This document shows positions 10,664 to 63,497 of a stretch of 64,000 nucleotides of DNA, in pieces. The DNA lies in the NCBI GenBank assembly GCA_017458065.1, contig JAFTGD010000038.1, forward strand, positions 62,001 through 126,000. The letters are read 5' to 3'. The translations under genes were made by a program, and so were the position numbers. This DNA is from Oscillospiraceae bacterium. GTDB lineage: Bacteria; Bacillota; Clostridia; Oscillospirales; Oscillospiraceae. A model generated the notes under the pieces. The model did not search any database. It was not told the DNA's origin and saw nothing but the letters and a program-made list of their open reading frames with translations. Within the stretch, counting starts at the first letter, position 1, and every line of letters begins with the position of its first letter.

Positions 10664-10949
10664 CTTGTTGGAATCAGGGTATATAAAAAGACCCCAATTG
10701 GCTACAGAGCTCTCTTATCAGCGAAGATAGACCTACTCTTATTGACCATTTCACAAGTTTGCATGCTTGACAGCACTGGTTTATAGTTACCAACTTATAA
10801 AACTTGAGCTTTTAACTCAATCAATAAGGCAACCCAAGGTTGCCGCCCGCATCACAGCGGGATTCGGCGTTCGACCCGGCTGTCCGTGTGGCCTTGGCTG
10901 CTTCCGCAGCGGTCGTATCTTGCTTCGGATAAACTTGATCCAATTGAGA
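10664..10949 (-). promoter_or_regulatory. Structured untranslated leader of potABCD (candidate riboswitch/attenuator)
   Basis: The transcript from the promoter at 10956-10984 runs about 330 nt before potA and has no convincing reading frame. Local hairpins are seen: GCTGC/GCAGC with a four-base loop (10897-10910), CCCGC/GCGGG (10846-10861) and GGCAACC/GGTTGCC (10828-10844). CCTTGG at 10892-10897 can alternatively pair with CCAAGG at 10834-10839, which would break the third hairpin. The leader ends in the terminator at 10632-10663. I do not recognise it as FMN, TPP, SAM, lysine, cobalamin, glycine, guanidine or T-box type. Confidence 0.55.
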
Positions 10950-14785: not shown

Positions 14786-14791
14786 GCAAAC

Positions 14792-14900
14792 ATCTTCAGG
14801 GCAGGGTGTAATTCCCGACCGGCGGTAAAGTCCGCGAGCCGAAAGGCATGATCCGGTGTGATTCCGGGACCGACAGTAGAGTCTGGATGGAAGAAGATGG
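14792..14900 (+). promoter_or_regulatory. FMN riboswitch (RFN element)
   Basis: Contains the RFN hallmarks: TCTTCAGGGCAGGGTG at the 5' side, ATTCCCGACCGGCGGT, GAGCCGAAAGGC-type arm, and GACAGTAGAGTCTGGATG near the 3' side, closed by the complementary GAAGA end (5' TCTTC). FMN binding should favour the terminator at 14937-14967 and so reduce riboflavin transporter synthesis. Confidence 0.93.
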
Positions 14901-14936
14901 AGAAGTCCATAGTTTTCCTTGCCCTCATTTTTTGAG

Positions 14937-14981: not shown

Positions 14982-15647
14982 ATGAAAGAAAGCAAAATGT
15001 CCACGCGCTACATGGCGGCAGTCGCCATGTTCGCAGCCGTCTCCTTCGTGGCGGTGCTGATCAGCAAGGTGATCCCCAATGTGGCGGGATTTCTGAGCTA
15101 CGAGCCCAAAGATGCCGTGATCGTGATCGCGGGGCTGCTCTACGGGCCTATGACAAGTGTGCTGATCTCGGTGATCGTATCTTTTATTGAGATGATCACC
15201 ATCAGCACCACAGGGCCTTACGGACTGCTGATGAACATCGTCTCCACCTGCGCCTTCGCAGTTCCGGCGGCGTGGTTCTATCAGAAGCACCGCACCCAAA
15301 AGGACGCGGTCATCGGGCTCGGATTCGGCGTTGCGACCATGGTCGTTGCCATGCTGCTCTGGAACTATATTATCACGCCTTTCTATATGGGCGTCCCGCG
15401 CGCTACGGTTGCAGGCATGCTGATGACGGTCTTCCTGCCCTTCAACCTGGTGAAAGGCGGCATCAACGCGGGCCTGACCCTGCTGCTCTACAAACCGGTG
15501 GTGAACGCCCTGAGAAAGGCACATCTGGCCGAGCCGAGCAAGAGCGGTACGGAAAAAGGGCATTTCAGCGCGGGCTTTACGCTGTTTGCACTGGCTGTCC
15601 TGATCACCTTTGTGCTTCTGTTCCTCGTGCTGATCGGCGTGATCTGA
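14982..15647 (+). CDS. ribU: ECF riboflavin transporter S component RibU
   Basis: 221 residues with about six membrane helices. The N-terminal TRYMAAVAMFAAVSF matches the Ala-rich TM1 motif by which S components dock onto EcfT, and PKDAVIVIAGLLYGP and EMITISTTGPYGLLMN are typical RibU segments. It binds riboflavin outside the cell and works with the EcfA/A'/T energising module, which is not in this window. A C-terminal extra helix (about 190-221) extends past the usual ~190 residues. Start ATG 14982 has GGAGGG. The FMN riboswitch directly upstream supports riboflavin over other vitamins. Confidence 0.9.
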   Translation: MKESKMSTRYMAAVAMFAAVSFVAVLISKVIPNVAGFLSYEPKDAVIVIAGLLYGPMTSVLISVIVSFIEMITISTTGPYGLLMNIVSTCAFAVPAAWFYQKHRTQKDAVIGLGFGVATMVVAMLLWNYIITPFYMGVPRATVAGMLMTVFLPFNLVKGGINAGLTLLLYKPVVNALRKAHLAEPSKSGTEKGHFSAGFTLFALAVLITFVLLFLVLIGVI

Positions 15648-15676: not shown

Positions 15677-15705
15677 TTGACAATCGACCGGGTTTGGTCT
15701 ATATT
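15677..15705 (+). promoter_or_regulatory. Promoter of the aromatic amino-acid operon
   Basis: TTGACA (15677-15682), a 17-bp spacer and TATATT (15700-15705). Predicted start near 15712, followed by the leader peptide gene. Confidence 0.85.
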
Positions 15706-15734
15706 ACTTGCAGTTCCGATCTGGAGGAATATTT

Positions 15735-15791
15735 ATGAAGGCTTTCCGTTTTGCATCCTACTATTATTACTTTACTGACTCGCTTCGGTAA
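15735..15791 (+). CDS. Attenuator leader peptide rich in Tyr and Phe
   Basis: An 18-codon frame, MKAFRFASYYYYFTDSLR, with a perfect GGAGG (15723-15727) 7 nt before the ATG. Codons 9-12 are four Tyr in a row (15759-15770) and three Phe codons flank them. It lies between the operon promoter and a terminator, and its position relative to the RNA pairings (see attenuator entry) is that of the trp/phe/his leader peptides. The ribosome would stall here when charged tRNA-Tyr (or tRNA-Phe) is scarce. The peptide itself should have no other role. Confidence 0.85.
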   Translation: MKAFRFASYYYYFTDSLR

Positions 15792-15866
15792 GGATAATTT
15801 GTGGTGCAAAGAGAGCTCTGATTGTTGAGAATTGCCGCACAGGTTATCCTGTGCGGTTTTTATTTT
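15749..15866 (+). promoter_or_regulatory. Ribosome-mediated transcription attenuator of the aro-tyrA-pheA operon
   Basis: Four segments pair in alternative ways. Segment 1 (15749-15758, in the leader peptide just before the Tyr run) pairs with segment 2 (15803-15810). Segment 2 (15800-15809) can instead pair with segment 3 (15832-15841) through 8 pairs around a 2x2 loop. Segment 3 CCGCACAGG (15835-15843) pairs perfectly with segment 4 CCTGTGCGG (15848-15856), followed by TTTTTATTTT: the terminator. Stalling at Tyr codons masks segment 1 and frees 2 to form the antiterminator; a ribosome at the stop codon (15789) masks 2 and allows termination. Confidence 0.8.
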
Positions 15867-15877
15867 GGAGGTACAAC

Positions 15878-16879
15878 ATGATTGTCGTTTTAAAACACGG
15901 AGTATCGGATGAGAAAAAGGCGCAGCTGATCGCGTGGCTGGAAGCGCTGGGGCTGAAGATCCACATCTCCAACGGAGAGTTTCAGACGGTTCTTGGTCTG
16001 ATCGGCGATACGACCTCGGTGGATATCGATCTTGTCGAGAGTCTGGAGATCGTCGATTCGGTCAAGCGGGTTACCGAACCATTTAAGTGCTGCAACCGCA
16101 AATTCCATCCCGACGATATGATCGTTGAGATCGGCGACGTCAAGGTCGGCGGCGGCAACTTCGTCATGATTGCGGGCCCGTGCTCGGTGGAGTCGGAAGA
16201 ACAGATCGTCGCGGTCGCAAAGGCGGTCAAGGCTGCCGGCGCCAAGATGATGCGCGGCGGCGCGTTCAAGCCCCGCACGTCTCCCTATGATTTTGCCGGT
16301 CTGAAAGCGACAGGGCTGGAGTACCTGAAAATCGCCCGGCAGGAAACCGGGCTGCCCATCGTGACAGAGCTGATGAACATCATGGACCTTCCGCTTTTTG
16401 AGGATGTGGATGTCATCCAGGTGGGCGCCAGAAACATGCAGAACTTTGACCTTCTGCGCGAGCTCGGCCGTATGAACAAGCCCATTCTGTTAAAGCGCGG
16501 GCTTGCCAACACCCTGAAGGAGCTGCTGATGAGCGCGGAGTACATCATGGCAAACGGAAACGAGCGCGTGATGCTCTGCGAGCGCGGCATCCGTACCTTC
16601 TCCGATTACACCAGGAACACGCTGGACCTCGCGGCGGTACCGATGCTGCATCAGCTGACCCATCTGCCGATCATTGTGGACCCGAGTCATGCCACCGGCA
16701 TTGCGAAGCTGGTCCCGCCCATGGCGATGGCGGCGACGGCCGGCGGGGCAGACGGCCTGATCATCGAAGTGCACAACGACCCAATCCATGCTCTCTGCGA
16801 CGGTGCGCAGTCGCTTCGCCCGGAGGAGTTTGCGGAGCTGGCGGATAAGATCCGTGCGATCAGAGGTGTTATCGCATGA
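15878..16879 (+). CDS. aroF: 3-deoxy-7-phosphoheptulonate (DAHP) synthase, type I-beta with regulatory N-domain
   Basis: 333 residues. Condenses phosphoenolpyruvate and erythrose 4-phosphate, the first shikimate step. Residues 1-~68 (MIVVLKHGVSDEKK) are the ferredoxin-like domain that gives feedback control in the Thermotoga-type enzymes. The catalytic barrel contains AGPCSVESEEQ, GGAFKPRTSPYDFAGL, VGARNMQNFDLL, LLKRGLANTLKE, CERGIRTFSDYTRNTLD and VDPSHATG, all standard. An upstream in-frame ATG at 15851 lies inside the terminator; GGAGG at 15867-15871 fixes ATG 15878. First structural gene of the operon, overlapping tyrA by 4 bp. Confidence 0.93.
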   Translation: MIVVLKHGVSDEKKAQLIAWLEALGLKIHISNGEFQTVLGLIGDTTSVDIDLVESLEIVDSVKRVTEPFKCCNRKFHPDDMIVEIGDVKVGGGNFVMIAGPCSVESEEQIVAVAKAVKAAGAKMMRGGAFKPRTSPYDFAGLKATGLEYLKIARQETGLPIVTELMNIMDLPLFEDVDVIQVGARNMQNFDLLRELGRMNKPILLKRGLANTLKELLMSAEYIMANGNERVMLCERGIRTFSDYTRNTLDLAAVPMLHQLTHLPIIVDPSHATGIAKLVPPMAMAATAGGADGLIIEVHNDPIHALCDGAQSLRPEEFAELADKIRAIRGVIA

Positions 16880-17712
16880 GCACCGTGGGCGTAGTGGGAC
16901 TCGGCTTGATCGGCGGCAGCTTTGTCAAGGCCTATCATGAGGCCGGCTGGCAGGTTTTGGCGGCAAACCGCACAAAATCCACGCTGGAATTTGCAAAGAT
17001 TTCGGGCGACGTGGACGGGGAGCTCACCAAAGAGAATGTGGGCAGCTGCGATCTTGTTCTGGTGACGATTTTCCCGGAGGCGGCGATTCAGACCATACGG
17101 GAGTTTGCCCCGTATTTCGGCACCAAACCCATCGTTATGGACTGCTGCGGCACCAAACGTGTCGTTTGCGAAGCTTGTTTCCCGATTGCGGAAGAATACG
17201 GCTTTACCTACGTGGGCGGACACCCGATGGCCGGTACCAAGTACTCCGGTTACAAATACGCCAAGGCAAACATGTATCAGAATCAGCCGATGGTCATTGT
17301 GCCGCCCAAATATGACGATATATTTCTGCTGGACCGGATAAAAGAACTGCTGCGTCCGGTGGGCATTAATCACATTTCCGTGACGACTGCGGAAAAGCAC
17401 GATGAGATGATCGCCTTTACCTCTCAGCTGGCGCACGTTGTCTCCAACGCCTATGTCAAGAGCCCGACCGCCAGGATCCATCACGGCTTTTCCGCCGGCA
17501 GCTATAAGGATCTCACGCGAGTGGCATGGCTGAACGCCCCGATGTGGGCGGAGCTCTTCCTCGAGAACAAGGATTACCTCCTGACCGAAGTCAACGGACT
17601 CATCGAACGCCTCGATGCCTATCGCAAGGCGATGGAAGAGGACAATATCCAGGAACTGACAGACCTGTTGAATGAGGGCAAGCGCATGAAGGAGGAGGTC
17701 GACGGCCGGTGA
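16876..17712 (+). CDS. tyrA: Prephenate dehydrogenase
   Basis: 278 residues. Oxidatively decarboxylates prephenate to 4-hydroxyphenylpyruvate, the tyrosine branch. The dinucleotide-binding motif GLGLIGGSFVKAY begins at residue 7; GGHPMAGTKYSGYKYA and the His in TSQLAHVVSNAYV are the conserved active-site blocks. There is no C-terminal ACT domain, so feedback must come from AroF or from transcription control. ATGA overlap with aroF; GTGA overlap with aroB. Confidence 0.92.
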   Translation: MSTVGVVGLGLIGGSFVKAYHEAGWQVLAANRTKSTLEFAKISGDVDGELTKENVGSCDLVLVTIFPEAAIQTIREFAPYFGTKPIVMDCCGTKRVVCEACFPIAEEYGFTYVGGHPMAGTKYSGYKYAKANMYQNQPMVIVPPKYDDIFLLDRIKELLRPVGINHISVTTAEKHDEMIAFTSQLAHVVSNAYVKSPTARIHHGFSAGSYKDLTRVAWLNAPMWAELFLENKDYLLTEVNGLIERLDAYRKAMEEDNIQELTDLLNEGKRMKEEVDGR

Positions 17713-18761
17713 GAAGCGTTTCCGTTCATACGCCGTCTTCATCCTACGATGTCCTGATCGGCAGCGGGATTCTTGGGGAGCTCGGCGCACGGGTCAGAGA
17801 TCTCACTGCGGCGCGGCGCTGCGTGCTGGTGTCGGGCGAGAACGTGTTCCCGCTCTACGGAGAGGAAGCGCTGAAAAGTCTCCGGAATTCCGGGCTGCAG
17901 GCGGAGGCGCTGGTCTTTCCGTCCGGGGAGAGTACCAAGAGCCTTGCCCGGTACGAAGAACTGCTGAACTTTCTGACCGAACAGCGCATGACCCGCACGG
18001 ACTGCCTGATTGCGCTGGGCGGCGGCGTGACCGGGGATCTGACCGGCTTTGCCGCGGCGACTTATCAGAGGGGCATCCCTTATCTGCAGGTCCCGACGAC
18101 GCTGCTGGCGGCGGTGGATTCCTCCGTCGGAGGGAAGACCGCGGTGAACCTGCCCGCGGCCAAAAACCAGGTTGGTGCGTTCTATCAGCCTGCTGCCGTC
18201 CTCTGCGACACCGATACGCTCGCGACCCTTCCGGAGCGCGAGCTCAGAGCCGGCTATGCCGAAGCGATCAAGTACGCCGTCCTCGGCGACGCGGACCTGT
18301 TTGACGGTCTGCAGCGCCGTTCTGTTTCACTGGATGAAGTGATTGAAACCTGTGTCAGGATGAAGGCCGATATCGTCGAAGAGGACGAGCACGACCTCGG
18401 AAGGCGCAGACTGCTGAACCTTGGCCATACCTTCGGCCACGCGGTGGAGTCCTGCAGCGGCTATGGTCTGCTGCACGGGGAAGCGGTCGCCATCGGAATG
18501 GCAATGATCGCGAATGCCGCCGTCAGGATGCATCACATGGACGAAAAGAGCCGGGATATCATGATTGAACTGCTCCGGGATTACGGCCTCCCGACAGAGA
18601 CGGACTATACCGCGGACGAGCTCTACGATATCCTGCTGCTGGATAAGAAGATCGCCTCCGGAAAGCTGCACCTGATTGTCCCGCACTCCATCGGCTGGTG
18701 CAATACGGTCGCGGTGGGACCGGAAGAGCTGAGACAATGGCTCGAGGCTGCCTATGAATAA
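17709..18761 (+). CDS. aroB: 3-dehydroquinate synthase
   Basis: 350 residues; converts DAHP to 3-dehydroquinate with NAD and a divalent metal. GGGVTGDLTGFAAATYQRGIPY is the NAD-binding loop (within residues ~100-125), TTLLAAVDSSVGGKTAVN the phosphate and substrate site, and the zinc ligands come from Glu in EAIKYAVLG and the His of NLGHTFGHAVE and LLHGEAVAIGM. Start is GTG at 17709 in a GTGA overlap with tyrA. The stop overlaps the aroA start by 8 bp. Normal length for the family. Confidence 0.93.
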   Translation: MRSVSVHTPSSSYDVLIGSGILGELGARVRDLTAARRCVLVSGENVFPLYGEEALKSLRNSGLQAEALVFPSGESTKSLARYEELLNFLTEQRMTRTDCLIALGGGVTGDLTGFAAATYQRGIPYLQVPTTLLAAVDSSVGGKTAVNLPAAKNQVGAFYQPAAVLCDTDTLATLPERELRAGYAEAIKYAVLGDADLFDGLQRRSVSLDEVIETCVRMKADIVEEDEHDLGRRRLLNLGHTFGHAVESCSGYGLLHGEAVAIGMAMIANAAVRMHHMDEKSRDIMIELLRDYGLPTETDYTADELYDILLLDKKIASGKLHLIVPHSIGWCNTVAVGPEELRQWLEAAYE

Positions 18762-20052
18762 GACGATCCCGCCCGGAAGGAGAAGCGGATCGGTTACGAT
18801 CCCGTCTTCCAAATCCGTCGTCCACCGGCTGATGATCTGCGCGGCGCTCGGTGAGCATCCTGTCAGACTCGAAATCGACGGCCTGTCAAAAGACATTCTC
18901 GCGACGGCAAACTGCCTCAGGGCCTTGGGAGCGGAGATTGAAGTCTCGGACAGAGAAATCCGGATCCAGCCAATCGGCCGCAGGGAAGAGCAGGCTTCGG
19001 AGGCGCTGCTTCTGACCGGAGAGAGCGGATCGACACTGCGCTTTCTGCTACCGGTTGTCGGCGCGCTCGGAAGGAAAGCGGTTTTCCGCATGGAGGGGCG
19101 GCTCTCCGACCGGCCCCTCGCACCCTTTGACAGGCTGCTCACAGAACACGGCATGTGCATCCGGAAAGAAGGCTGCCTGCTTCATTGTTCCGGCAAGCTT
19201 GCCGGAGGGAATTATCCGTTGCCCGGCAATGTCTCCTCCCAGTATTTTTCCGGTCTGCTGATGGCGCTGTCGCTATTGCGGGAGGAAAGTCTGCTCACCG
19301 TCGAGGGTGAGCTCGAGTCGGAGGCCTATGTGCGGCTGACGGAGGATGCGCTTCGGCTATCCGGTATCTGCTTTGAAAAGCGAGACGGTTTCGGCTGGCA
19401 TATTCCCGGAAACCAGATCCCGGCTCCGCCGGCCGTACTGCGGGCGGAAGGGGACTGGTCAAACGCCGCCTTCTATCTCTGTATGGGCGCGCTCAGTAAC
19501 GAGGGCGTCACAGTTGCCGGACTGAACCCGCAGTCCACACAGGGCGACCGCTCCGTAACGGAAATCCTCCGCTCCTTCGGCGCTGAGATCACCTTCTCCC
19601 CGGAGGGCGGGATCACCGTAAAGCAGGGCGATAAGAAACCCATCCGCATCGATGCGGCCCCGGTACCGGATCTGGTGCCGGTACTGGCGGTGCTCTGCTG
19701 CGCAGCAGGCGGGACGTCGGAGATCTATAACGCGGCCCGCGTACGGCTGAAGGAGTCAGACCGGCTTCATACGACGACGGCGCTGATCCGCTGCTGCGGC
19801 GGCGACGTGGAGGAGCATGCGGACGGACTCACGATCCACGGGACCGGAACTCTCAGAGGGGGAGCGGTCGACGCTTTCAACGACCACCGCATTGCCATGA
19901 GCGCGGCAGTTGCAGCCTGCCTCTGCCGCGAGCCGGTTTCGGTCAGCGGGGCCGAATGTGTCGAAAAATCGTATCCCGCCTTCTGGCAGGATTATGAGAA
20001 CCTGACTCTCCCGACCGTATCGGAAGCCGGAGAGAATAACGCTTTGGAGTGA
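18754..20052 (+). CDS. aroA: 3-phosphoshikimate 1-carboxyvinyltransferase (EPSP synthase)
   Basis: 432 residues. Transfers the enolpyruvyl group of PEP to shikimate 3-phosphate. GSVTIPSSKSVVHRLMICAAL is the N-terminal substrate loop (Lys, Ser and Arg ligands), LTGESGSTLRFLLPVV contains the region homologous to the GNAGTA/T PEP site, SSQYFSGLLMALSLL is the shikimate-3-P site, RVRLKESDRLHTTTALI and FNDHRIAMSAAVA complete the site. GESGST in place of GNAGTA is of the class II, low-glyphosate-affinity type. Overlaps aroB; aroC follows after 4 bp. Confidence 0.93.
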   Translation: MNKTIPPGRRSGSVTIPSSKSVVHRLMICAALGEHPVRLEIDGLSKDILATANCLRALGAEIEVSDREIRIQPIGRREEQASEALLLTGESGSTLRFLLPVVGALGRKAVFRMEGRLSDRPLAPFDRLLTEHGMCIRKEGCLLHCSGKLAGGNYPLPGNVSSQYFSGLLMALSLLREESLLTVEGELESEAYVRLTEDALRLSGICFEKRDGFGWHIPGNQIPAPPAVLRAEGDWSNAAFYLCMGALSNEGVTVAGLNPQSTQGDRSVTEILRSFGAEITFSPEGGITVKQGDKKPIRIDAAPVPDLVPVLAVLCCAAGGTSEIYNAARVRLKESDRLHTTTALIRCCGGDVEEHADGLTIHGTGTLRGGAVDAFNDHRIAMSAAVAACLCREPVSVSGAECVEKSYPAFWQDYENLTLPTVSEAGENNALE

Positions 20053-20056
20053 CAGC

Positions 20057-21130
20057 ATGAGCAGCATTTTTAGCGGTTCCGCTTTGCGCCTGTCCATATT
20101 CGGCCAGAGCCACAGCGAGGCAATCGGCATGACGCTGGACGGACTTCCCGCGGGGATCCCGCTGGACCTCGACAGGCTACAGACCTTTCTGAACCGGAGG
20201 GCGCCCGGACAGAACGACTGGTCCACGCCCAGAAGGGAAGAGGACAGGCCGGAGTTCCTTTCCGGGCTGAAGAACGGCAAAACCTGCGGCGCGCCACTGA
20301 CCGCGGTCATCCGAAACGGCAACACCCGCGGGAAGGACTACGAGCAGCTCCGTGTTCTGCCGCGGCCCGGTCATGCGGATTACACGGCCCAGCTGAAGTA
20401 CGGCGGTTATCAGGATTATTCCGGCGGCGGGCATTTTTCCGGTCGGCTCACAGCTCCGCTCTGCATCTCCGGAGGCATCCTAAAGCAGATGCTGCAGGCA
20501 AGGGGAATCCTCTGTGATGCGAGGATCCTCAGCATCGGCCCCGTGCAGGACGACTCTGCCTTTCCCGCGTCTGTTGCCGGGAAGGACTTCCCGACGGTCT
20601 CCGACGGGAAAGCGGAAGAGATGAAGAACGTGATCGCAGCTGCCCGCGCCGACGGGGACTCCGTCGGCGGCGTGATCGAATGTGTGATCCGCGGCGTACC
20701 GGGCGGTTTGGGCGAGCCCATGTTTGACGGAGTGGAGAACCGGATCGCCCAGCTCGCTTTTGCGGTTCCTGCGGTAAAGGGCATCGAATTCGGCAGCGGT
20801 TTTGCCGCGGCTGCCATGCGGGGAAGCGAGAATAACGACGCGTACACGGTCTGTGACGGACGGGTCGTCACGACGACAAACCACGCCGGCGGGATCCTCG
20901 GCGGCATCACCGACGGGATGCCGGTTGTGTTTCGCGTGGCAGTCAAACCGACGCCGTCCATTGCCAGGGCGCAAAACAGCATCAATCTGGAAAGCATGGA
21001 ACCGGGGATCCTACGCATCAGCGGCCGCCACGATCCCTGTATCGTCCCGCGGGCGGTGCCGGTGATCGAAGCCGTGGCGGCTATTGCCATATCAGATCTA
21101 CTTCTGGGAGGGAAGAACATATGGAACTGA
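20057..21130 (+). CDS. aroC: Chorismate synthase
   Basis: 357 residues. Needs reduced FMN; converts EPSP to chorismate, the branch point for Phe, Tyr, Trp and folate. N-terminal LSIFGQSHSEAIGMTLDGLPAG is the family signature with the active-site His. GGGHFSGRLTAP, the ARADGDSVGGVIECVIRG region, and TTNHAGGILGGITDGMP complete the conserved blocks, and GRHDPCIVPRAVPVIEA is the C-terminal signature. Overlaps pheA by 10 bp, with the pheA ribosome site inside its last codons. Confidence 0.94.
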   Translation: MSSIFSGSALRLSIFGQSHSEAIGMTLDGLPAGIPLDLDRLQTFLNRRAPGQNDWSTPRREEDRPEFLSGLKNGKTCGAPLTAVIRNGNTRGKDYEQLRVLPRPGHADYTAQLKYGGYQDYSGGGHFSGRLTAPLCISGGILKQMLQARGILCDARILSIGPVQDDSAFPASVAGKDFPTVSDGKAEEMKNVIAAARADGDSVGGVIECVIRGVPGGLGEPMFDGVENRIAQLAFAVPAVKGIEFGSGFAAAAMRGSENNDAYTVCDGRVVTTTNHAGGILGGITDGMPVVFRVAVKPTPSIARAQNSINLESMEPGILRISGRHDPCIVPRAVPVIEAVAAIAISDLLLGGKNIWN

Positions 21131-22263
21131 ACGAATACAGAGAACGAATCGACCAAATCGACCGGCAACTGCTCAATCTGTTTACCGAGCGCATGGATGT
21201 CGTGTCCGAAATCGCCTCCTGGAAACAGGAAAAACACATGCCGGTTCTTGACGTGCGCAGGGAGAAGGAGAAGCTTCAGAAGATTGAGGAACTCAGCCGT
21301 CCGGAGCTCGCGGAATACAGCTTCACCCTGTTCTCGGTCCTGCTGGAGCTGTCACGCAGCAGACAGAACCGCATCCTGCATCGCGAAAGCGCGGAAACCG
21401 CGGCAATTGAGGCTGCCCTGCGCGATACGCCGCAGCTTTTCCCGGAGAAAGCGATCGTCGCATGCCAGGGGGTGGAAGGGGCTTATTCCGGTATCGCGTG
21501 TGAGAAGCTGTTTGCCAAGCCCAGCATCTTCTATTTCTCGACCTTTGACGCGGTGTTCTCGGCGGTGGAAAAGGGACTCTGCCGCTATGGAGTGATCCCG
21601 GTGGAGAACAGCACGGCCGGTACCGTGAACGCGGTATACGATCTGATGAGGAAGCACAATTTCCGGATTGTGCGCTCGGTTCGGATCAAGATCGACCACA
21701 ATCTGCTGGTAAAGCCCGGGACCAAGCTCGAGGACATCCGAGAGATTTATTCCCACGGTCAGGCGCTGACCCAGTGCGCCGGCTTTCTGCAGAAGTTCCC
21801 GAACGCCAAGATCATCCCCTGCGAGAACACCGCCGTGGCATCCAAGATGGTGGCCGAGTCGGAGGACCCGGGCGTTGCGGCGCTCTCCTCCCGCAGCTGT
21901 GCCAGACTGTACGGGCTCGAGATCCTGATGCCCTCGGTACAGGACTCCTCGGACAATTATACGCGCTTTATCTGTATCTCGAAGAATCTGGAGATTTATC
22001 CGGGAGCGGACCACACCAGCCTGATGATGGTCATCCAGGATGAGCCGGGGACTCTCTATAACGTGCTGGCCCGTTTTTATGCCCTCGGGATCAACATGCA
22101 CAAGCTGGAGAGCCGCCCGATTCCCGGAAGGAACTGGGAGTACCGTTTCTACTTTGACCTCGACACCTCGGTCTATTCTCCGCGCTTTATCCAGCTGATG
22201 GGAGAGCTCGGTGATCTCTGTGAGGAGTACGAATACCTCGGCAGTTACAGTGAGGTGGTCTGA
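21121..22263 (+). CDS. pheA: Bifunctional chorismate mutase / prephenate dehydratase (P-protein)
   Basis: 380 residues in three parts. Residues 1-~85 are an AroQ-type chorismate mutase (LNEYRERIDQIDRQLLNLFTERM). About 115-290 is the prephenate dehydratase domain (CQGVEGAYSGIACEKLF, PVENSTAGTVNAVYDLM, SRSCARLYGLEIL, SSDNYTRF). About 300-375 is an ACT domain (MMVIQDEPGTLYNVLARFYALGINMHKLESRPI), whose ESRP motif binds phenylalanine for feedback inhibition. It makes phenylpyruvate from chorismate. In the operon it balances tyrA at the chorismate/prephenate fork. Confidence 0.94.
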   Translation: MELNEYRERIDQIDRQLLNLFTERMDVVSEIASWKQEKHMPVLDVRREKEKLQKIEELSRPELAEYSFTLFSVLLELSRSRQNRILHRESAETAAIEAALRDTPQLFPEKAIVACQGVEGAYSGIACEKLFAKPSIFYFSTFDAVFSAVEKGLCRYGVIPVENSTAGTVNAVYDLMRKHNFRIVRSVRIKIDHNLLVKPGTKLEDIREIYSHGQALTQCAGFLQKFPNAKIIPCENTAVASKMVAESEDPGVAALSSRSCARLYGLEILMPSVQDSSDNYTRFICISKNLEIYPGADHTSLMMVIQDEPGTLYNVLARFYALGINMHKLESRPIPGRNWEYRFYFDLDTSVYSPRFIQLMGELGDLCEEYEYLGSYSEVV

Positions 22264-23481
22264 ATGAAGTGCGGACTGCTCGGTGAAAAGCTGGGCCATA
22301 GCTATTCTCCGCAAATCCACGCAGAAGTGGCCGACTACGAGTACCGGCTGTACGAGAAGCGGCCGGATGAGGTGGAGGCCTTTGTCCGGCAGGGGGACTG
22401 GCACGGCCTCAATGTGACGATTCCCTATAAGAAGACCGTGATCCCGTTCTGCGACGAGCTGACGCCGCTTGCCGAAAAGATCGGCAGCGTCAACACGCTC
22501 CTGCGGAGAGATGACGGGACGATCCTCGGGGACAACACGGATGCCTGCGGCTTTGAGTCGCTTCTGACGGCGGCCGGCTTTGACCCGACAGGGAAAAAGG
22601 CTCTTGTCCTCGGCAGCGGGGGCGCCTCCGCCACGGTATGCGCCTGCCTGCGTATGCGCGGCGCACAGGTGGTCACCGTCTCCCGGACCGGCGAAGACAA
22701 CTATCAGAACGTCGCAAGGCATCAGAACGCCGCCCTCGTTGTGAATACCACGCCCCTCGGCATGTATCCGAAGAACGGAGAGAAGGCGCTGGATCTGAGC
22801 GTTTTCCCGAGGCTGGAGGCGGTGCTGGACGTGGTGTACAACCCGGCCAGAACCGCGCTGCTTCTGCAGGCGGAGGAGCTCGGCATCCCCTGTGCGGGCG
22901 GACTTCGGATGCTGGTCGGGCAGGGAGTGCGCGCATCCGAGATCTTTCAGGGACACAGCCTGCCTGCGACGGAGCTGGAACGCGTCCTCAAAAAGCTCAG
23001 CTTCGAGATGCAGAATCTTGTTCTGATCGGGATGCCCGGTTCCGGCAAGTCCACCGTGGCAAGGCTGCTTTCCGAGGCCCTGGACCGCCGCTGCGTGGAA
23101 GCGGACGCGGAGATCGAAAAAGCTGCCGGCATGTCCATCCCCGAGATCTTTGCCCGGGAGGGCGAGGACGGGTTCCGCCGTCGGGAGACCGAGGTGCTCT
23201 CCGCCTTCGGAAAGCAGTCCGCCATTATCCTGTCGACAGGCGGCGGCTGCGTCACCCGCGGGGAGAACTATCCGCTTCTGCACCAGAACGGGACCATCAT
23301 TCGCATCACGCGTGATCTCGGCAGACTTGCCAGAGAGGGGAGACCGCTCTCCCTGAATGCGGACCTGGAGCAGATGGCCACGGTGAGAGAGCCGTTTTAC
23401 CGGCGCTTTGCGGATATCACGGTGTCAAATGTCGGGACGCCGGAGGAGACTGTGCGGGCGATCCTGGAGGCGCTGAAATGA
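22264..23481 (+). CDS. aroEK: Fused shikimate dehydrogenase - shikimate kinase
   Basis: 405 residues. AroE: residues 1-~245, with GEKLGHSYSPQIHA and NVTIPYKKTVIPF (substrate and catalytic Lys), NTDACGFESLL, the NADP loop VLGSGGASATV and NTTPLGMYP. Then AroK: residues ~250-405, with Walker A GMPGSGKSTVARLL (about 258), EADAEIEKAAGMSIPEIFAREGE read in parts around 280, RRRETEVL and STGGGCVTR. One chain thus does dehydroshikimate reduction and shikimate phosphorylation. The start follows the pheA stop by one base; the end overlaps aroQ (ATGA). No free-standing aroK is present in the window. Confidence 0.93.
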   Translation: MKCGLLGEKLGHSYSPQIHAEVADYEYRLYEKRPDEVEAFVRQGDWHGLNVTIPYKKTVIPFCDELTPLAEKIGSVNTLLRRDDGTILGDNTDACGFESLLTAAGFDPTGKKALVLGSGGASATVCACLRMRGAQVVTVSRTGEDNYQNVARHQNAALVVNTTPLGMYPKNGEKALDLSVFPRLEAVLDVVYNPARTALLLQAEELGIPCAGGLRMLVGQGVRASEIFQGHSLPATELERVLKKLSFEMQNLVLIGMPGSGKSTVARLLSEALDRRCVEADAEIEKAAGMSIPEIFAREGEDGFRRRETEVLSAFGKQSAIILSTGGGCVTRGENYPLLHQNGTIIRITRDLGRLAREGRPLSLNADLEQMATVREPFYRRFADITVSNVGTPEETVRAILEALK

Positions 23482-23918
23482 AGTTTTTAATCATCAACGG
23501 ACCGAACCTGAATATGCTTGGGATCCGCGAGCCGGATATCTACGGCGCACAGGATTTCCAGGCGCTGCAGCGGTTCATCTATGACTGCTGTCTGGAGGAG
23601 GGCATCGAACCGGTTCTCTTCCAGTCCAACCATGAAGGGGCGATCGTGGATCGGATCCAGGCTGCCTACGGTGAAGCCGACGGTATTGTGATCAATCCGG
23701 CAGCCTATACCCACACCAGCGTTGCGATTCTCGACGCACTGAAGGCTGTGGCGATCCCCGCGGTGGAGGTCCATCTCTCCAATGTCAGCGAGAGGGAGAG
23801 CTTCCGACAGATTTCCTATCCCGGCATGGCCTGTATCAAGGCTTTCGTCGGGCTTGGCTTCGAAGGCTATCGACAGGCGATTTTGTATCTGAAGGATTGG
23901 CTGCAGAAAGAAAAATAA
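23478..23918 (+). CDS. aroQ: 3-dehydroquinate dehydratase, type II
   Basis: 146 residues, the normal size of the dodecameric type II enzyme. INGPNLNMLGIREPDIYG holds the catalytic Tyr and the N-terminal signature, QSNHEGAIVDRIQ the catalytic loop, and NPAAYTHTSVAILDAL and EVHLSNVSERESFR the substrate ligands. It performs the third pathway step although it is the last gene. A strong terminator follows at 23923-23949. Confidence 0.94.
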   Translation: MKFLIINGPNLNMLGIREPDIYGAQDFQALQRFIYDCCLEEGIEPVLFQSNHEGAIVDRIQAAYGEADGIVINPAAYTHTSVAILDALKAVAIPAVEVHLSNVSERESFRQISYPGMACIKAFVGLGFEGYRQAILYLKDWLQKEK

Positions 23919-61810: not shown

Positions 61811-63193
61811 TTATTCGACACCCGGGACCTTCGGGAGAGCGGCAATGCTCTTTGCCAGATCCTCGTCCGTGGGGATGTAGTCCGTCATCTCGCCGTCGTT
61901 GTACTTCTGATAGGCGACCAGATCGAAATAGCCGGTTCCTGTGAGACCGAAGACGATGGTCTTCTCCTCGCCGGTTTCCTTGCATTTGAGCGCCTCGTCA
62001 ATGGCAACGCGAATGGCGTGGCTGCTCTCCGGCGCGGGCAGGATGCCCTCAATACGCGCGAACTGTTCCGCGGCTTCAAACACCGAGGTCTGTTCGACGG
62101 CGCGGGCTTCCATATATCCGTCGTGGTAGAGCTGGCTCAATATGGTGCTCATGCCATGGAAGCGGAGGCCGCCGGCATGGTTCGGAGAGGGGATAAAGCT
62201 GCTGCCGAGGGTGTACATCTTTGCCAGCGGGCAGATCATGCCGGTATCGCAGAAGTCGTAGGCGAACACGCCTCTGGTAAAGCTCGGGCAGGAGGCGGGT
62301 TCCACGGCGATGATCTGGTAATCGGCCTCGCCGCGCAGCTTCTGTCCCATAAAGGGAGCGATCAGTCCGCCGAGGTTGCTGCCGCCGCCGGCGCAGCCGA
62401 TGATCATATCGGGCTTGATGCCGTATTTGTCCAGCGCGGCCTTCGTCTCGAGGCCGATCACCGACTGGTGCAGCAGGACCTGATTCAGCACACTGCCCAG
62501 CACATAGCGGTAGCCTGGATTCTTGACGGCAACTTCGACCGCCTCCGAGATCGCGCAGCCGAGAGAACCGGTTGTGTCGGGATGCTCGGCAAGGATCTTT
62601 TTGCCGACCTCAGTGGTCATGGAGGGGGAAGGTGTCACCTGTGCGCCGTAAGTGCGCATGACCTCACGGCGGAAGGGCTTCTGCTCATAGCTGACTTTGA
62701 CCATGTAGACCTTACAGTCCAGACCGAAATAGCTGCAGGCCATGGAGAGCGCGGTGCCCCACTGCCCGGCGCCGGTCTCGGTTGTGACGCCCTTCAGACC
62801 CTGCTTTTTGGCGTAATAAGCCTGGGCCACGGCGGAGTTCAGCTTATGGCTGCCGCTGGTGTTGTTGCCTTCGAACTTGTAGTAGATCTTGGCCGGGGTG
62901 CCGAGCTCCTTTTCCAGACAATAGGCGCGCACCAGGGGAGAGGGACGGTACATCTTGTAAAAGCTCTGGATCTCTTTCGGGATCTCAATATACGGGGTCT
63001 GATCATCCAGCTCCTGCTTCACAAGCTCCTCGCAGAAGATACCGCTCATCTCTTCGGCCGTAAGCGGCTGACCCGTTCCGGGATTGAGCAGGGGCGCCGG
63101 TTTGTTCTTCATATCGGCGCGAAGATTATACCACGTGCTGGGGATATCGGATTCGCTCAGATAGATTTTGTAGGGGATTTCGTTGACGCTCAT
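61811..63193 (-). CDS. trpB: TrpB2-type tryptophan synthase beta chain
   Basis: 460 residues, longer than the ~400 of TrpB1. PLP enzyme; the Lys is in NNTSGSHKLNSAVAQAYY (Lys about 112), with KFEGNN before it, ETGAGQWGTALSMAC next and GCAGGGSNLGG as phosphate loop. IPSTWYNLRADM and RPSPLVRAYCLE are typical of TrpB2. No trpA or other trp gene is near; TrpB2 can use free indole or act on O-phosphoserine. ATG 63193 with GGAG. A Trp T-box lies directly upstream, supporting a tryptophan-related role. Confidence 0.9.
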   Translation of the reverse strand: MSVNEIPYKIYLSESDIPSTWYNLRADMKNKPAPLLNPGTGQPLTAEEMSGIFCEELVKQELDDQTPYIEIPKEIQSFYKMYRPSPLVRAYCLEKELGTPAKIYYKFEGNNTSGSHKLNSAVAQAYYAKKQGLKGVTTETGAGQWGTALSMACSYFGLDCKVYMVKVSYEQKPFRREVMRTYGAQVTPSPSMTTEVGKKILAEHPDTTGSLGCAISEAVEVAVKNPGYRYVLGSVLNQVLLHQSVIGLETKAALDKYGIKPDMIIGCAGGGSNLGGLIAPFMGQKLRGEADYQIIAVEPASCPSFTRGVFAYDFCDTGMICPLAKMYTLGSSFIPSPNHAGGLRFHGMSTILSQLYHDGYMEARAVEQTSVFEAAEQFARIEGILPAPESSHAIRVAIDEALKCKETGEEKTIVFGLTGTGYFDLVAYQKYNDGEMTDYIPTDEDLAKSIAALPKVPGVE

Positions 63194-63220
63194 TTGATAC
63201 ACTCCTTCTTTTGCAGGGAC

Positions 63221-63263
63221 AAAAAGAAAACTCCTGTCGCCTGCCTATTTGCAGGGACAAGAG
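63221..63263 (-). terminator. T-box terminator upstream of trpB
   Basis: On the minus strand CTCTTGTCCCTGC (63263-63251) pairs with GCAGGCGACAGGAG (63244-63231) with one bulge, followed by TTTTCTTTTT (63230-63221). The competing antiterminator uses the GGGTGGTACCGC bulge at about 63276-63287. Confidence 0.85.
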
Positions 63264-63491
63264 CAATAACTCCTGCGGTACCACCCGGCTTGACGCTTAT
63301 GCGCCCACTTCAGCATGCCATCACATGCCGGCCTTACGATAACGGACGGCCAACTCCGTCTCTCATACTCGAGCCAAAGCTCTTTCTGTTCGCCCTCACA
63401 AGTCCATTCTTCAGATCCGTCCGTACCGCATTCCCACCGCCAGCGGCTCTCTGAGACATTCGGAAAAGAATACTCCTCTTGTTCTTCGGTT
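63264..63491 (-). promoter_or_regulatory. T-box riboswitch, Trp (UGG) specifier
   Basis: Minus-strand leader with the T-box antiterminator core GGGTGGTACCGC (63287-63276), an AG-rich stem I with the distal region, and a specifier-loop-like GAATGGACTTG (about 63395-63405) containing the codon TGG. Uncharged tRNA-Trp would pair with TGG and the T-box bulge and prevent the terminator at 63221-63263. It fits the downstream trpB2. Confidence 0.85.
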
Positions 63492-63497
63492 TATAAG

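Follow-up and report, generated by a model that had tools for sequence, protein, structure and literature searches.

What controls the eight-gene aromatic operon aroF-tyrA-aroB-aroA-aroC-pheA-aroEK-aroQ (15878-23918) found in the window, a stretch of 64,000 nucleotides of DNA from an Oscillospiraceae bacterium? A short open reading frame (ORF) rich in tyrosine codons precedes aroF, and a preliminary description read it as the leader peptide of a ribosome-mediated attenuator of the trp-leader type. We examined this reading through comparison with relatives, pairing tests, folding with a modeled ribosome, and searches for similar sites elsewhere.

The leader locus

The elements first described at this locus are all present (Table 1): a consensus promoter, a GGAGG followed by a frame of 18 codons with four consecutive Tyr and three Phe codons, a terminator with a T-tract, and the complete operon behind them. 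The Phe codons lie at 15744-15746, 15750-15752 and 15771-15773 (codons 4, 6 and 13), and the peptide has the pattern FxF...YYYYF. Just 3' of the terminator follow the GGAGG of aroF and its ATG. As in a trp-type attenuator, a translatable leader ORF carries a run of codons for amino acids that the operon produces, and an intrinsic terminator stands between the leader and the first gene. The region 15708-15870 folds with z = -3.89, and none of 200 dinucleotide shuffles was equally stable. Compared with Rfam, including the T-box (RF00230) and the known riboswitch aptamers, neither this leader nor the leaders of 15 relatives matched any family at its gathering score.

Table 1. Features of the leader locus and of the operon behind it (window coordinates)
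Feature	Position	Strand	Basis
Sigma-70 type promoter TTGACA-17-TATATT, leader transcript	15677..15705	+	11/12 consensus matches
Shine-Dalgarno GGAGG of leader ORF	15723..15727	+	sequence
Leader peptide ORF MKAFRFASYYYYFTDSLR (then stop), 18 codons, ATG 15735, stop TAA 15789-15791	15735..15791	+	sequence; conserved in relatives
Segment 1, 5' strand of protector hairpin (1:2)	15750..15778	+	folding, pair counts, cognate-versus-foreign test
Four consecutive Tyr codons, predicted stall site	15759..15770	+	sequence, stall model
Segment 2, GGATAATTTGTG(GT)GC, 5' strand of antiterminator, abuts stop codon	15792..15807	+	pairing tests
Segment 3, GCCGCACAGGTTATCC, common to antiterminator (2:3) and terminator (3:4)	15834..15849	+	pairing tests
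Intrinsic terminator, 10-bp stem 15834-15857, then T-rich tail TTTTATTTTG	15834..15867	+	sequence; pair counts
aroF, DAHP synthase	15878..16879	+	NF006421, 480 bits
tyrA, prephenate dehydrogenase	16876..17712	+	family match, below equivalog cut-offs
aroB, 3-dehydroquinate synthase	17709..18761	+	profile match
aroA, EPSP synthase	18754..20052	+	profile match
aroC, chorismate synthase	20057..21130	+	profile match
pheA, chorismate mutase/prephenate dehydratase	21121..22263	+	family match, below equivalog cut-offs
aroE-aroK fusion, shikimate dehydrogenase and shikimate kinase	22264..23481	+	below equivalog cut-offs
aroQ, type II dehydroquinase	23478..23918	+	profile match

Two other RNA elements were seen in the window. 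An FMN riboswitch (117 bits) lies just upstream of the attenuator at 14788-14902 (+), with the substrate component of an ECF transporter behind it (14982-15647, +; riboflavin-type Pfam match), and the riboswitch was also found on loci L009, L014 and L022. At 10864-10915 (-) there is a match (62.8 bits, E 6.6e-9) to SpF59 (RF02440), a Streptococcus small RNA family, apparently outside Streptococcus here.

Conservation of the leader in relatives

We collected the sequences upstream of aroF in two sets, one from a genus draw in which 81 of 101 genomes had a match, and one of 80 loci from contigs, the best 80 of 582 confirmed relatives; 153 upstreams were usable and 142 distinct. Those nearest among the named relatives are Ruminococcaceae/Oscillospiraceae MAGs; isolate names point to ruminants as the source of several. 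Under a strict rule (ATG, Shine-Dalgarno sequence, 10-45 codons, at least four Phe/Tyr within eight codons), 51 of the 70 distinct same-genus upstreams contained a leader (0.15 in dinucleotide shuffles), as did 52 of 72 in the contig set (0.35 in shuffles). The comparison with related genomes that had been suggested at the outset bears out a conserved Tyr/Phe leader ORF before aroF. Seven of the 19 same-genus upstreams that failed the rule (L017, L020, L032, L033, L036, L119, L148) have a leader visible by eye and failed on the Shine-Dalgarno patterns. A loose rule, which allowed any start, counted Trp and was run without a shuffle control, accepted 127 of the 142; because it lacks that control and takes in some wrong ORFs (for example, in L032, L147 and L157), we rely on the strict counts.

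A hairpin search that was blind to the antiterminator found a terminator after 117 of these 127 candidates. Since the same search gives 23.4 hits when 127 shuffled stretches are used, a stricter rule (eight unbroken pairs, five of them G-C) is more telling, and it was satisfied in 81 of 127 cases as compared with 0.4 in shuffles. Of 58 genus leaders examined for promoter-like sites (at least 10 of 12 consensus matches), 51 had one upstream of the ATG, as against 0.8 in shuffles. The peptides differ in length (16 to about 40 codons), in the length of the run and in their termini; relatives keep the aromatic codons in the stall window and the positions that pair in the RNA, and the rest of the peptide is poorly kept.

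Alternative pairings of the RNA

The preliminary description proposed mutually exclusive segments, and these exist, but not with the boundaries it gave. Its distance of 11 nt between stop codon and segment 2 is wrong, because segment 2 begins directly after the stop. Its first segment, 15749-15758, is indeed part of the protector hairpin but was ruled out as the sole first strand: in the folding, 15750-15758 pairs with 15803-15810, and the Tyr/Phe codons themselves pair too, 15766-15778 with 15785-15798. The antiterminator 2:3 consists of 12 continuous pairs plus 2. In some relatives (L046, L060, L065, L137, and long leaders such as L077, L090 and L104) segment 2 lies inside the leader ORF, with the stop within or after TTTGTG, so the stop codon shifts relative to segment 2.

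Relatives alter both sides of the 2:3 helix, as in GGGTAA/TTGACCC (L036), GGCGAA/TTGCGCC (L043), GGCATATTT/AGATAATGTC (L139) and GGTCAA/TTGATCC (L148). We compared the duplex energy of each leader's own segments with that of segments from foreign leaders, using 91 representatives (117 leaders had a terminator, of which 115 were usable) and 5,000 permutations. Cognate 2:3 pairs averaged -19.9 kcal/mol as compared with -15.7 for foreign ones, and cognate 1:2 pairs -24.4 as compared with -19.3; neither difference was reached in any permutation. The control pairings were 1:3 (-9.8 versus -9.4, reached in 251 permutations), 2:4 (-10.0 versus -9.7, reached in 549) and 1:4 (-8.4 versus -7.8, reached in 9). 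The departure of 1:4 from chance means that relatedness or composition adds something to this test, although the advantage of own partners is 0.6 kcal/mol there as against 4.2 for 2:3 and 5.1 for 1:2. Within the 59 class-A leaders, 2:3 and 1:2 again gave 0 of 5,000.

A second check used an alignment of 57 leaders, comprising the 62 class-A candidates minus L078, excluded as mis-assigned, and L050, L057, L059, L065 and L142, excluded as divergent, with L023 added by hand. Here 2:3 was paired in 97.5% and 3:4 in 96.7% of cells, both with compensatory changes, and the covariation scores of both exceeded all 500 shuffles and the slid versions of the structures, a comparison that favors structures derived, as these were, from the first sequence; relatedness also limits these pair-count figures. 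For further pair types in 2:3, the shuffles were not exceeded (142 of 500). The protector 1:2 was paired in 75.9% of cells, with cells and score above shuffles; its pairs changed on both sides (10 observed, 10.6 expected; 224 of 500) and its further pair types were not above shuffles. Since 1:2 overlaps codons, its conservation is partly coding. The covariation anticipated in the preliminary description was accordingly found for 2:3 and 3:4; for 1:2, the energy, the score and the percentage paired agree with it, and the count of two-sided changes does not. With that exception, the leader has the mutually exclusive, conserved and covarying stems of a trp-type attenuator.

Stall-position folding and the proposed mechanism

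We folded the transcript as far as the 3' end of segment 3, assuming that a ribosome covers 31 nt. In this model the probability of 2:3 is 0.002 without a ribosome. It is 0.63 when codon 1 occupies the A site, lies between 0.965 and 0.996 throughout codons 2-15, falls to 0.03 at codon 16, and is 0 at codon 17 and all positions beyond it as far as the stop, which places all seven aromatic codons inside the permissive window. As in trp-type attenuation, a ribosome at the sensor codons is predicted to favor 2:3 and one at the stop to block it. When the full-length RNA is treated at equilibrium, the antiterminator exceeds 1% only with the ribosome on the Tyr run or on the Phe that follows it (codons 9-13), and the terminator always wins, the highest value for the antiterminator being 0.38 (Tyr codon 10); the mechanism therefore needs co-transcriptional kinetics.

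Averaged over 93 leaders, 2:3 had 6.4 pairs in free RNA, 13.7 with the ribosome stalled in the run, and 2.9 with it at the stop. The run exceeded the stop by more than 2 bp of 2:3 in 83 of the 93, the free RNA in 64, and both in 62, which leaves 31 leaders where it did not exceed both. In these the cause is often that the truncated RNA is predicted to form 2:3 by itself, so that not every untranslated leader would terminate. The model separates stalling from completion well, and predicts ribosome-free termination for only part of the family.

The leader ORF, the alternative stems (some 1:2 measures excepted), the terminator and the model's predictions all support the reading as ribosome-mediated attenuation. 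When charged tRNA is short, the ribosome would stall on the Tyr/Phe codons and open the 1:2 protector; the freed segment 2, directly behind the stop, would capture segment 3 before the polymerase has made segment 4, and transcription would continue into aroF. With plentiful charged tRNA, the ribosome would reach the stop, its body covering segment 2, so that 3:4 could pair and transcription would end near 15860-15867. If the leader were not translated, 1:2 would form and transcription would also end. We are thus confident, on modeling as well as comparative grounds, that the whole shikimate/Tyr/Phe operon is controlled here by ribosome-mediated transcription attenuation in response to charged tRNA-Tyr and probably also tRNA-Phe; the speed of leader translation very probably decides whether the operon is on or off. 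What we computed is the conservation, the specificity of pairing, the folding by stall position, and the occurrence of another such site ahead of a likely importer of Tyr; from these we infer the stalling and termination themselves, and which of Tyr and Phe dominates.

A second site before a probable tyrosine-binding protein

A covariance model (R1) built only from aroF leaders was run on the same genome and on the genus. In the genome it recovered the aroF leader itself, where a further match on the minus strand (E 1.44) was read as echoing the palindromic terminator. It also found a second site in the genome at G000:C20:42613-42751 (E 5e-7; locus L229, G000:C20:41113-44251), with the leader on the minus strand. 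This leader reads MKALSFAAAYDFRYYFRKTK up to its stop codon, has the segments TAGAAGTTTGTGCTGC and GCCGCACGGACTTCTCC, and lies 180 nt, ATG to ATG, before the gene of a PF04392 substrate-binding protein.

In the genus, 76 of 102 genomes had an R1 match; many of the matches at aroF are training sequences, while those elsewhere are not. We fetched 20 non-aroF matches, a part of all such matches, and behind 19 of them found homologues of the PF04392 protein, with Tyr/Phe leaders. The remaining one (L274, G062:C10) is an attenuator directly before a tyrA-like gene, presumably tyrA from our reading of its sequence. That genome lacks a close aroF, so the attenuator appears to stay with the operon where aroF is missing. 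At the non-aroF sites, too, a leader's own segments 2 and 3 paired better than foreign combinations (the observed value was reached in 4 of 5,000 permutations; n = 20, with near-identical copies kept).

The best solved relative of the PF04392 protein is 6HNI, the CD0873 protein of Clostridioides difficile. PMC6816091 describes CD0873 as binding tyrosine, a choice set by Glu-263 and Tyr-279, and relatives that bind Phe or Trp as having Ala at the first site, the Trp binder also having Gln at the second. We placed these two positions by hand on our protein from the alignment, and found Glu and Tyr there in it and in all 19 of 19 homologues (20 of 20). These 20 proteins are relatives, and therefore not 20 independent events. 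In C. difficile, loss of the genes of an ABC transporter with such a binding protein is accompanied by reduced uptake of Tyr and Phe (PMC5951980). Leader codons for Tyr/Phe and a tyrosine-type pocket occur together, and therefore the codons and the likely cargo agree; judging from sequence, the protein behind the second site is likely a component of a tyrosine importer.

Alternative explanations

The alternative that survives best is a variant of the preferred reading, so that confidence in the one does not exclude the other: Phe might be mainly sensed, with the Tyr run secondary. The Phe-Tyr-Phe leader of Corynebacterium glutamicum AroR responds to Phe and not to Tyr, according to PMC11802643, and Phe codons 4, 6 and 13 of our leader all fall within the predicted antitermination window. 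The Tyr codons, on the other hand, are consecutive and nearest the protector helix, and the protein behind the second site has pocket residues of the tyrosine type, so we consider this variant unlikely, though worth keeping in view.

Far less probable is a sensor of the TnaC kind, a nascent-peptide arrest sensor, in which free Tyr or Phe rather than charged tRNA would be sensed in the exit tunnel. Such sensors exist and the peptide is rich in aromatic residues; but the peptide varies in length, run and termini while aromatic codons persist in the stall window and the pairing positions, the terminator is intrinsic, and the modeled geometry would couple arrival at the stop codon with termination. 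We give slightly less credence still to a metabolite riboswitch or T-box with an incidental ORF. Riboswitch expression platforms also take the form of alternative stems before a terminator, and T-boxes hold this place in some relatives; against this, the leader has no Rfam family at gathering score, what folds ahead of the terminator is the ORF, relatives retain its aromatic runs but differ in other codons, and the second site has a Tyr/Phe leader too. That the ORF, which does have a promoter, Shine-Dalgarno sequence and stop, encodes a small functional protein before a constitutive terminator can practically be dismissed, given a peptide poorly kept outside its aromatic and RNA-pairing positions and antiterminator pairs that co-vary.

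T-boxes and leaders through the order and class

Searches of the order and the class gave matches in 41 of 59 and 58 of 79 genomes, from which we picked 60 aroF upstreams by hand, one per genome. With a rule of at least five aromatic codons (F, Y, W) in eight plus a clear Shine-Dalgarno sequence, a leader was found at 17 of 30 order/family loci (0.15 in shuffles) and 14 of 30 class loci (0.10). Loci L168 and L169 have long aromatic runs and no clear Shine-Dalgarno sequence at the listed start. Among the 56 loci scanned with Rfam (L201-L204 left out), five had a T-box on the aroF strand (L191, L194, L195, L226, L227), and none of these five had a Tyr/Phe leader by the same rule. Different members have a T-box or a leader at aroF; thus the same gene uses either device.

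A T-box for trpB had been reported near 63.3 kb of the window. The T-box is real (63250-63495, minus strand, 82.2 bits, E 4e-18), if below the Rfam gathering score of 93; the identity of the gene did not hold, as the gene behind it (61811-63202, -) encodes a TrpB-like PLP enzyme (NF009057), not canonical TrpB. The view that leader-peptide attenuation is foreign to Firmicutes is also too strong. Published cases include the His leaders of bacilli (PMC2965389), a Leu leader of Staphylococcus aureus (PMC5794164) and attenuators of the his operon in Peptostreptococcaceae (PMC9413887); they resemble our leaders in using leader-peptide attenuation, partly in alternation with T-boxes, and differ in serving other amino acids and other genes.

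RF04312 as a possible tryptophan counterpart

The best Rfam match of the aroF leader was RF04312 (the trpB motif), at 22.9 bits full-length as against a gathering cut-off of 59 bits, and we rejected it as the identity of the leader. In the genus, none of 101 genomes had an RF04312 match over the cut-off; three sub-threshold matches lay on contigs other than those of aroF, and no Tyr/Phe leader was visible in the stretches there (L165-L167). PMC11109978 presents RF04312 as a strong riboswitch candidate, its authors having left a classic attenuator possible.

In 196 class genomes there were ten RF04312 matches, all below the cut-off. Six (L281-L284, L287, L288) have leaders with His runs before what we take from their sequences to be hisZ-like genes, and two precede genes that we likewise read as sodium symporter-like, one with a Tyr-rich leader (L286) and one with an unclear leader (L280); nothing recognizable was seen at L285 and L289. 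Perhaps these RF04312 relatives are one platform with several sensor codons.

Among 398 genomes of the phylum a single match passed the cut-off, and we searched its order (that of G585), where 88 of 148 genomes had a match, 35 of them over the cut-off. We checked 30 high-scoring loci (L290, L292-L320), all but L320 over the cut-off. A leader with Shine-Dalgarno sequence, ATG and Trp codons ended near RF04312 in 29 of the 30 (0.62 in shuffles), and 26 of the 30 had a WxxW motif (0.00 in shuffles). At the 24 loci where a PF04392-like protein could be aligned, the position of residue 279 was Gln in all 24, and that of residue 263 was Val in 23 and Ala in one. Across the two families, Glu/Tyr accompanies Tyr leaders (20 of 20), and Val or Ala together with Gln, the Trp-type residue at 279, accompanies Trp leaders (all 24 that could be aligned, from 30 loci). 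RF04312 is most likely a Trp leader-peptide attenuator, to the extent that such comparisons can tell; we found no paper stating this in the literature searched. It resembles the aroF leader in having a hairpin plus terminator, an indicated leader (Trp) and sites before PF04392-like importers, and differs in its core sequence.

Known systems and significance

Among the closest known systems are the pheA/pheL and trpL attenuators of E. coli (PMC11802643). They use Phe or Trp codons and belong to Proteobacteria, and we know of no core sequence common to them and the aroF leader. They share with it the logic of 1:2, 2:3 and 3:4 and a stop codon beside segment 2. Two leader-type candidates at aroF itself have been described, in C. 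glutamicum (PMC11802643) and Acholeplasma (PMC8632094). The AroR-aroF attenuator of C. glutamicum, described by Neshat et al. 2014 as cited in PMC11802643, likewise places a Phe/Tyr leader before a DAHP synthase operon under ribosome-mediated transcription attenuation; it is set apart by its Actinobacterium host, its single Phe-Tyr-Phe and its response to Phe only. The uORFC-13-1 motif shares a candidate leader ORF and a terminator before aroF, and differs in its 24 representatives from Acholeplasma and environmental sequence; the available text of PMC8632094 describes a U-run coding at least one Phe and makes no mention of a Tyr run.

The mechanism is thus known. In the literature searched, we found no report of this family, of its run of Tyr codons, of its second target or of how widely it occurs in Clostridia. 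That search turned up no Tyr-run attenuator in Clostridia, and control by runs of Tyr codons is to our knowledge little described. The computational evidence for a new family of a known mechanism is strong. More broadly, we think it probable that leader-peptide attenuators with exchangeable sensor codons are a major level at which the phylum controls amino acids, one that has gone largely undescribed. In Clostridia, a Tyr/Phe family would take the place of T-boxes in controlling aromatic synthesis and a tyrosine importer, RF04312 would be its Trp counterpart (with weaker relatives for His and perhaps Tyr), and leader codons would predict the importer pocket. For gut and rumen bacteria, this attenuator family would link tyrosine synthesis with its probable uptake. 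T-boxes and leader peptides would be exchanged at one gene, transporter substrates may be predictable from leader codons, and for one published class of riboswitch candidates, RF04312, a reclassification is suggested.
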